Of a DNA stretch of 64,000 nt, positions 38,214 through 39,976 are shown piece after piece (the stretch's first letter is position 1; each line of letters begins with the position of its first letter). Where the stretch lies: NCBI RefSeq assembly GCF_012396015.1, contig NZ_JAAXOQ010000015.1, forward strand, positions 1-64,000. The letters are read 5' to 3'. The stretch comes from Tsukamurella spumae. Lineage in GTDB: Bacteria; Actinomycetota; Actinomycetes; Mycobacteriales; Mycobacteriaceae. The position numbers and the translations under genes were made by a program. The notes beneath the pieces are model-generated. The model was not told where the DNA came from and did no database searches. It saw only the letters and a list, made by a program, of their open reading frames with translations.

Positions 38214-38391
38214 GGCTCCTCCAGAGCACGACGGGGATTGGCGATGGGCGGTGCTGTGGCGACGACCTTCCGGCGGATGAAGCGGGGTCCCCGCCCGACC
38301 CGTACCTGGCGTTGGGGAAGTACGTCAGGGCCGATTCGGGCGCAGGCCTCGGTCCACCTCGTCGCGGACGTGCGCTGCGGTACTGCGCGGC

Positions 38392-38823
38392 TTAGAAGAT
38401 CGCCTTGAGCGATTCGGACTGCGGCTGCGCGTAGTCGTCTTCGTGCTGTGCCTGGTAGTGCTCCCACGCCTCCGCGTCCCAGATCTCCAGGAACCTCCGC
38501 GATCCGACGACGACGCATTCCTTGGTGAGGCCTGCGTAGCGGCGGTGATCGGCCGAGAGCGAGATCCGACCCTGGGAGTCGGGACGCTGATCGTCCGAGC
38601 TGGCGAAGAAGTTGCGGTAGAAGGCGCGTCCCGCGGGGTCGGTCCATTCGATGGCATCGGCTTTCTCGGCGATGCGCTCGAACTCCGCCTTCGGGTACAC
38701 CGTGAGGCTTCGATCCTGTCCTTTCGTGATCGTGAGCCCACCCGCCAGTTCCTCGCGGTACTTCGCGGGGAGGGTGAGCCGTCCCTTGTCGTCGAGCTTC
38801 GGCGTGTAGGTACCCGTGAACAT
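38392..38823 (-). CDS. mraZ: Transcriptional regulator MraZ
   Basis: 143 residues with two AbrB-like MraZ halves: [24 protein letters not shown] and [21 protein letters not shown] 38823 is preferred over GTG 38832 because GGGAGG (38832-38837) sits 8 bases before it and the family begins [13 protein letters not shown]. MraZ is the DNA-binding regulator of the dcw operon and binds tandem GTGGG boxes; such boxes are present 78 bp upstream. The acidic C-terminus ([17 protein letters not shown]) is unremarkable. Confidence 0.96.
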
Positions 38824-38874
38824 CACGGCCACCTCCCGCCTCCCCCGTCGGGGTTGTCACTGGATCGAGACTTC

Positions 38875-38936
38875 AGACTAGCGCGTCTTTCTCCAGTGCG
38901 CCCCACATTACCCCACCATCCGCCACTTTCAACCAC
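38875..38936 (-). promoter_or_regulatory. MraZ operator (four GTGG boxes) and mraZ promoter
   Basis: On the minus strand four boxes GTGGTT, GTGGCG, GTGGGG and GTGGGG start exactly every 10 bases (38936, 38926, 38916 and 38906 going down), each followed by 4 bases of spacer. This is the known architecture of MraZ operators (GTGGG repeats with one helical turn spacing). A TAGTCT hexamer at 38875-38880 could be the -10, placing the last box in the -35 region, suitable for autorepression. Confidence 0.85.
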
Positions 38937-39397
38937 CTCGCGCCGCGTTTCGCGGCGAATTCTCAGAGTTCACGCAGGTCATAGCCGTGGCGCGAAGTGG
39001 GGGAAGCGACGCGTCCGGGCGCGGCGGACTTCGTCACATCCGTCCACAGGCCGCAACCACAGCGATCGATGTGATTGCTGAGGCACGATTGATTTCGGTA
39101 GGACCGCCCGTGGGGAGAAGTGGGGAAACCGGGTGGGGAGAAGTGGGGAGGCTCGGTCCGACCAGCCTCAGGTCGGCACGGGACCGGCGGCAGGAGGCGG
39201 GCGCGGATGCCGTCCTCGGACGCGGTCGTCCCCCACGCGGCGGTTCATCCCCCACGCCGGGGTTCGTCCCCCACCCGACGCCGGTCGTTTCCTGGGGGAG
39301 GCGTCGTCCCCCACGCCACGCCGTCGTCCCCCACGCGGTGAATCCACGGCGGGGCCCGCTCCGGGCAGGCGACGCTCGTTTCGCTCAGGGCGCAACG

Positions 39398-39426
39398 AAA
39401 AAGCCGCCGACCATCAGGTCGGCGGC
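39398..39426 (-). terminator. Intrinsic terminator of the DUF3040 gene
   Basis: Minus-strand hairpin with a perfect 10-bp stem (GCCGCCGACC at 39403-39412 against GGTCGGCGGC at 39417-39426), a 4-base loop and, on the minus strand, a run of five T residues at 39398-39402. It lies 18 bp beyond the DUF3040 stop and insulates the mraZ region from upstream transcription. Confidence 0.9.
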
Positions 39427-39444
39427 TTGTTCAGCTCTGCGAAC

Positions 39445-39870
39445 TCAGGGGAAGCGGCGGCGGAAGCGCTCCTCCATGCGGGCGACGAAGGACTGCCCGG
39501 AGGCGCGCGCGCCTCCGGTGCCGCGTCCGCGGCCCGAGCGGGTGCGCACGGAACCGTCCTCACCGACGGTGCCGCGCGGCCCCTTGCTGGACGGCCCGGA
39601 CCACAGGGCGTAGATCACGGAGCCGAACATCAGCAGGAAGCCGATGAGGCCGACGATCACGCCGATCTGCAGATTGCCGACGCTCAGTGTCATACCTGCG
39701 ATGAGCAGCATCAGTCCGACCGCGAAGCCGATCGCGGCGAACACCCGACGCTTGCCCGTAGCGCCGCCGAACCGGCCGCCGCGTACGTTCGACGCGAACT
39801 TCGGGTCCTCGGCATAGAGCGCGCTCTCGATCTGGTCGAGCATGCGCTGTTCGTGCTCGGAGAGTGGCAC
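39445..39870 (-). CDS. DUF3040 family membrane protein
   Basis: 141 residues. The N-terminal VPLSEHEQRMLDQIESALYAEDPKFASNVRG is the DUF3040 hallmark; two membrane helices follow (about 49-70 and 74-96), then a basic Gly/Arg-rich tail. GTG 39870 is chosen because AAGGAGG lies 5 bases upstream; an earlier in-frame start at 39888 would overlap this site. Equivalent to Rv2169c, always near mraZ in Mycobacteriales. Function unknown. Terminated by the hairpin downstream. Confidence 0.88.
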   Translation of the reverse strand: MPLSEHEQRMLDQIESALYAEDPKFASNVRGGRFGGATGKRRVFAAIGFAVGLMLLIAGMTLSVGNLQIGVIVGLIGFLLMFGSVIYALWSGPSSKGPRGTVGEDGSVRTRSGRGRGTGGARASGQSFVARMEERFRRRFP

Positions 39871-39976
39871 GTTCCCCTCCTTCAGCACTCATGGGGTCCA
39901 ACTCCTGGCTTCCATGATACGAGGCTTGCGAGCACACGACCACCATCCACCGAACAATTAGCGCCCACTGTGAGAT

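Follow-up and report, generated by a model that had tools for sequence, protein, structure and literature searches.

Inverted, apparently helically phased GTGGGG boxes upstream of mraZ as candidate auxiliary MraZ operators in Tsukamurella and related genera

Upstream of mraZ in Tsukamurella spumae, a field of GTGGGG boxes contains plus-strand arrays that run opposite to the promoter operator and, judging from their retention across genomes, almost certainly have a conserved function. These boxes are probably auxiliary operators of MraZ, that is, inverted and helically phased sites that would bridge the promoter into a loop; MraZ is likely to be the protein that binds them, and looping between the promoter and the arrays appears, on balance, to take place. 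The boxes, their conservation, their orientation bias, their 10-13-10 grammar, the mid site at 86 bp and the period of 11.2–11.3 bp were read from sequence, namely a stretch of 64,000 nucleotides (contig NZ_JAAXOQ010000015.1, here called the window) and the corresponding loci of related genomes. An extended MraZ landing pad looping the promoter, one of the possibilities raised by the first-pass annotation, is, for the plus-strand boxes, the reading with the best support, given their 10-bp grammar, their occurrence at a single locus, their conservation in the family, their opposite orientation and their phasing, but five minus-strand boxes that had been counted with them do not belong to it. 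The features of the locus are as follows.

38392..38832, minus strand: mraZ (Pfam PF02381)
38901..38932, minus strand: proximal MraZ-type operator, with strict boxes at 38901 and 38911 and further degenerate boxes, overlapping the putative promoter
38905-38910, minus strand: putative -10 element TAATGT, inside the proximal operator
38927-38932, minus strand: putative -35 element TTGAAA, inside the proximal operator
38974..38981, minus strand: companion motif TGACCTGC, beginning 65 bp upstream of the anchor box of the proximal operator, at a distance of 21 bp from the mid box
38987..39002, plus strand: mid auxiliary site GTGGCG(N4)GTGGGG, on the strand opposite to that of the operator, at a distance of 86 bp from the proximal anchor
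39110..39148, plus strand: distal auxiliary array (quartet) of four GTGGGG boxes, opposite to the operator, spacing 10-13-10
39229..39334, minus strand: five GTGGGGGA words, a 19–20 bp repeat with one gap of 40
39397..39432, minus strand: terminator-like hairpin behind the DUF3040 gene (inverted repeat I3; presumed function)
39445..39888, minus strand: DUF3040 gene (PF11239), in the same direction as mraZ

The box coordinates given previously were accurate to within 1–2 bp. Strict GTGGGG boxes start at 38997, 39110, 39120, 39133 and 39143 on the plus strand and at 38901 and 38911 (proximal operator), 39231, 39250, 39269, 39309 and 39329 on the minus strand, while the box at 38987 reads GTGGCG and is degenerate. 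This amounts to 12 strict boxes in 434 bp (38901–39334; two minus-strand boxes in the operator, five on the plus strand and five on the minus strand farther upstream), and the earlier figure of about fifteen boxes in 440 bp is reached only if degenerate boxes are counted. The placing of the boxes on one helix face is likewise only approximate, because the quartet boxes follow one another at 10, 13 and 10 bp. Across the 64-kb window, GTGGGG is no more frequent than expected (54 found vs 56.9 expected); a window-wide enrichment was thus rejected, and the unusual thing is the clustering of the boxes rather than the word itself. The tandem pattern GTGGGGN4GTGGGG occurs three times in the 4.46-Mb assembly, each time in the mraZ upstream field. 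Among 16 Tsukamurella genomes, 44 of its 51 matches lie immediately upstream of mraZ and 7 elsewhere, and the backward control pattern gave 36 matches in the same genomes.

The box field is housed in a gap of roughly 600 bp between mraZ, which is followed downstream by mraW, and the DUF3040 gene on its upstream side, and is thus located upstream of mraZ, where the dcw cluster begins. The true start of mraZ is likely the ATG at 38823, which is preceded by GGAGG, and the MraZ proteins of the Tsukamurella genus members are 100% identical to that of the window. The DUF3040 gene is codirectional with mraZ in 85 of 88 loci, the other three having no DUF3040 match, and the array lies downstream of its stop codon in 84 of 85 loci; the exception (L038) is probably a misread frame. 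No sign of conserved translation was seen, in agreement with the earlier description of the field as non-coding DNA. An RNA within the box field was rejected, as a search against Rfam returned no RNA there at E values up to 5; the only Rfam match above its gathering score was the mraW RNA downstream of mraZ. In the presumed 5' leader of mraZ, an inverted repeat (CACTGGA...TCCAGTG, 38858–38898) is largely conserved in the 14 aligned Tsukamurella and possibly forms an RNA hairpin.

Conservation within the genus was followed in an alignment of 14 of the 16 Tsukamurella upstream regions, the other two (L018 and L019) joining the later counts. The footprint comprises the promoter operator, the mid site and the quartet, all three of which are kept in the 14 aligned regions; upstream of the quartet, the regions do not align. 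In the proximal operator, GTGGGGTAATGTGGGG is identical in 14 of the 16 loci, GTGGGGTAA.GTGGGG is present in all 16 and TTGAAA in 15. The family consensus of this promoter operator is TTGAAAGTGGGGGAAAGTGGGGTAATGTGG, with boxes overlying the putative -35 and -10 elements. As far as can be told from the DNA, the proximal set overlaps the core promoter and the mid and distal arrays do not, which is why the latter are termed auxiliary sites and not promoter operator. All four quartet boxes are strict in 11 of the aligned Tsukamurella and three are in two, and in one a contig end falls inside the quartet. Two of its boxes, at 39110 and 39133, scored 7.87 and 9.95 against a matrix that had been trained with antisense pairs from 26 other genera, values that lie within the background of the other GTGGGG words of the window. 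The spacer between the mid site and the quartet measures 107–109 bp in all 16 genomes, even though spacers of equal length share a mean of only 48% of their bases (55 pairs, 20–81%). Within this spacer, TGTGACGAAGT (39028–39038, minus strand) was found in 9 of the 16 loci and TGTGAC in 12; the complement of TGTGACGAAGT contains GTCACA (39033–39038). Between the quartet and the DUF3040 stop, Tsukamurella genomes have from about 120 to about 500 bp; in the window, the part between the quartet and the DUF3040 terminator (39149–39396) is a variable GC-rich stretch, the counterpart of which contains, by eye, short repeats of other units in some Tsukamurella (e.g. L009 and L015).

The family sample comprised 145 (94 + 51) of 157 genomes, the 157 spanning 30 genera; the 12 outside the sample include L117 and L118, for which loci were available. 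In the first set 93 of 94 loci were usable (no start was found in L109, genus g28), and in the second 47 of 51 (four of genus g6 were dropped for the same reason). Distances were measured from an anchor, the TA-containing box pair of the promoter operator, which was found in 92 of the 93 loci (L081, genus g12, was not anchored). Outside Tsukamurella, the first set (77 loci, 28 genera) contained 227 antisense GTGGGG boxes in 76 loci between -450 and -130, and 29 sense boxes in 21 loci. In a control stretch from -1400 to -700 of the same loci the counts were 12 antisense vs 31 sense; this stretch was incomplete in five family loci because these had fewer than 1400 upstream bases. The bias was replicated in the second set, with 135 antisense boxes in 47 of 47 loci vs 26 sense boxes in 15. 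In the family, the distances from one antisense box to another show peaks at 10, 13, 23 and 33 bp, which is the 10-13-10 grammar of the quartet, and the dinucleotide ahead of antisense GGGG is GT in 364 cases, with 96 for the next commonest (a count that includes GTGGGGG overlaps). All five loci titled Mycobacterium or Mycolicibacterium (L030–L034) have antisense boxes 10 bp apart.

Nearer to the promoter, a strict antisense mid box lies 82–90 bp upstream of the anchor in 81 of 139 genomes, which represent 21 of 28 genera, with a mode of 86 bp (41 genomes), a distance that is in phase with the family period described below. The companion motif recurs, near -65, as T.A.CTG[CT] in the stretch from -80 to -40 relative to the anchor; it was found in 63 of 138 genomes, from 17 genera, and the reverse-complement control gave 5 in the same stretch. 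Such a TGACCTGC-type motif beside the mid site suggests that a second regulator acts on the division-gene cluster.

Beyond the family, the array was rejected as a feature of all Actinomycetes, given that the 51 usable loci (of 55) from other families of the class displayed no orientation bias (28 antisense vs 27 sense). Boxes beyond -130 were also counted in 20 loci from 11 other families of the order. The five loci of the sister family f42 had 36 antisense boxes and no sense box, with the sites kept in all five, and the other 15 loci together had 9 antisense and 6 sense boxes. The mid box of f42 lies at 87 bp in three of the five loci, at 89 bp in one and at 97 bp in one.

The distance from the anchor to the nearest distal pair ranges from 141 to 350 bp in the family and clusters at a period of 11.2–11.3 bp. 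A distal pair, by the definition used, was absent in 40 of the 139 anchored genomes. In the first set, the distal pairs of 25 genera gave R = 0.57 at 11.2 bp (genus-shift p-value = 0.00025, from a null that accounts only partly for the shared ancestry of genera). A period of 11.3 bp and a phase of about 5.1 bp were noted before the new loci were added, and the V-tests used a phase of 5.6 bp taken from the first set. The replication was significant (p-value = 1.3e-4, n = 24 genus-unique values), also with only those genus-distance pairs that were new to the second set (p-value = 0.021, n = 15). For the combined sets, the distal pairs gave R = 0.517 (genus-shift p-value = 0.0008), the nearest strict box a p-value of 0.0018 and all strict distal boxes R = 0.294 (p-value = 0.0255). 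Leaving out one genus at a time kept the period at 11.1–11.3 bp, and 49 of 62 values fell on the favoured half-turn, the phase being fitted to these same values. Distances to the ATG of mraZ had no such period (pair to ATG, p-value = 0.21; anchor to ATG, p-value = 0.098). Phasing between operator and auxiliary sites was seen within the family; complete quartets alone, an underpowered set of 10 genera, gave R = 0.547 with a p-value of 0.099, and the nearest distal pairs of f42, at 201, 203, 269 and 201 bp with no pair in the fifth locus, do not share the phase of the family. Steps within the 10-13 ladder average about 11.5 bp, so that the retention of different rungs could feed the period of 11.2–11.3 bp. 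The period is not ascribed to a 23-bp ladder, as no 23-bp peak was present in the distance periodicity of the first set, although the quartet-only test is underpowered. By analogy, the observed period is in agreement with the helical repeats reported for lac loops in vivo, fitted as 10.95–11.6 bp (PMC1762422) and given as about 11 bp (PMC8501960).

MraZ is reported to be an octameric toroid (PMC7761207), and its solved structures comprise 1n0e and newer entries. We propose that an MraZ ring binds the operator of its own operon, where the boxes overlap the putative -35 and -10 elements, and that MraZ would also bind the mid site about 86 bp and the distal array mostly about 190–280 bp upstream. 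Since the auxiliary sites are inverted and, within the family, located at preferred helical phases, one ring, or two touching each other, could bridge the sites, so that promoter and upstream DNA would lie next to each other in an antiparallel loop or wrap. With such a loop, the local MraZ concentration at the promoter would rise, and autorepression of the dcw cluster would be sharpened by it. Both opposite orientation and helical phase are required for an antiparallel loop or wrap formed by an oligomeric binder, and the fit of the two suggests this arrangement; MraZ as the binder, the formation of a loop and repression are what we infer from it. Tentatively, and with odds that we place somewhat below even, the family of Tsukamurella and Mycobacterium together with f42 may have a looped MraZ-ring switch with a rigid 86-bp mid module and a second-regulator site at TGACCTGC.

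The distal boxes could instead be MraZ sites for titration or cooperative loading only, with no loop, which is unlikely yet deserves to be taken seriously: their grammar matches that of the operator, they occur at a single locus in the genome, most genomes have several boxes per locus, and f42 is out of phase. A titration sink, however, requires neither a single orientation (227 vs 29 boxes) nor a phase relative to the promoter. The match of the 10-bp GTGGGG repeats to the promoter operator, their resemblance to the Mycoplasma MraZ unit (AAAGTGKN3)3, as quoted in PMC5282649, and the occurrence of GTGGGGN4GTGGGG at no second place in the genome all argue against another protein with a GTGGGG-like site occupying the upstream arrays and possibly also the TGACCTGC motif. 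We consider such an occupant improbable, even though the companion motif lies at a fixed distance from the mid site, MtrA has been reported at the mraZ promoter of Dietzia (PMC9602371) and the GTCACA at 39033–39038 is the core of a published MtrA motif (PMC2945938). MtrA may have a site of its own in the mraZ upstream field.

Boxes that point the opposite way would also be expected if a non-coding antisense RNA were transcribed from a divergent promoter and the boxes served as its operators. This reading is very improbable, as the DUF3040 gene is codirectional wherever it was matched (85 of 88 loci) and no TANNNT or TTG[AC] was found at a fixed place outward of the distal or mid boxes (top frequency 0.08). 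At the operator, TTG[AC] occurs at -16 in 43% (genus-weighted), TANNNT being part of the anchor definition there. Pair spacers beginning with TA were found in none of 142 distal and none of 32 mid pairs, a conserved outward -10/-35 together with a gene in that direction was not seen, and a divergent promoter requires no phase relative to the operator. Hardly credible, finally, is the action of the G-tracts as G-quadruplexes. The quartet has four G-tracts, and G-rich tracts lie at the mraZ promoter as in S. aureus, for which a G-quadruplex has been reported at that promoter (PMC11796246), but a G-quadruplex requires neither the constant GT (364 vs 96) nor the 10-bp spacing. Unlike in S. aureus, conservation in the family of Tsukamurella concerns GTG boxes at fixed spacing and not G-tracts, and no conservation of G-tracts irrespective of GT and spacing was found.

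The reading of the plus-strand boxes as auxiliary MraZ operators places them beside two kinds of known systems. MraZ heads a cluster of division and cell-wall genes, and its E. coli operator at the dcw promoter consists of GTG-core direct repeats. The same applies to the MraZ operators of dcw promoters in Mycoplasma and Burkholderia, described in the available portions of that literature as three to four copies of GTG-core direct repeats at the mraZ promoter, with a unit of about 10 bp in Mycoplasma that is like the box period in Tsukamurella, where the plus-strand boxes are tandem GTG-core boxes with a 10-bp period. Unlike these operators, the Tsukamurella locus adds apparently phased opposite-strand arrays 86 to about 300 bp upstream, and the same portions of the Mycoplasma and Burkholderia literature describe no such arrays. 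Repression loops with auxiliary operators are formed at ara and gal. Likewise, the lac repression loop, with a reported in vivo period near 11 bp, has sites of the same type distant from the operator, as are the mid and distal arrays. What sets the mraZ locus apart from lac, ara and gal are multi-box arrays in inverted orientation, a regulator that is ring-shaped and of another fold, and a single family-wide locus, with a loop that is putative. Judged by titles and abstract openings, no open-access paper found for MraZ and looping is about an MraZ loop, in a collection that lacks most MraZ papers. To our knowledge, the purpose of the ring shape of MraZ is not settled; conserved, phase-locked upstream operators would suggest DNA bridging.

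The five minus-strand boxes farther upstream, which the first-pass annotation had pooled with the plus-strand boxes, are of a different kind. The GTGGGGGA words span 39229–39236, 39248–39255, 39267–39274, 39307–39314 and 39327–39334, and TRF reports their 19–20 bp repeat with 2.9 copies. When relatives were searched for the box field, the plus-strand mid site and quartet were kept and these five boxes were not: as a set they were absent from all 14 of the other Tsukamurella genomes that could be read there, and among 15 other Tsukamurella loci the sense strand between -650 and -350 had no GTGGGG in 12 and a single one in 2, one locus being too short. Absence from close relatives, the outcome that the first-pass annotation had set against its proposal, thus applies to the five minus-strand boxes only. 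Their mean matrix score of 8.24 is like that of the 42 other GTGGGG words of the window (8.38) and compares with 11.29 for the quartet, and their 19–20 bp spacing departs from the 10-bp tandem GTG-core grammar of the MraZ operator. The five boxes were rejected as an operator on these grounds (no conserved set, 19–20 bp period, background-like score), and pooling them with the plus-strand boxes was wrong; we judge them to be a local, strain-specific repeat with no conserved part in the operator. Of the box field as a whole, what stands as real and conserved are the plus-strand boxes, the minus-strand five being a repeat of one strain.

At the junction of mraZ and mraW, the mraW RNA motif (RF01746) was matched at 38265–38365 on the minus strand with 56 bits (gathering score, 50). 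Across the class, this motif was found in 52 of 78 genomes at E ≤ 0.001 under stricter filters; in genus g45 it was found in none of 6 genomes, and an MraZ match in none of 10. A contig titled Acidobacteriaceae bacterium (L029) encodes an MraZ that is 87% identical to that of the window and is probably a mislabelled metagenome bin.
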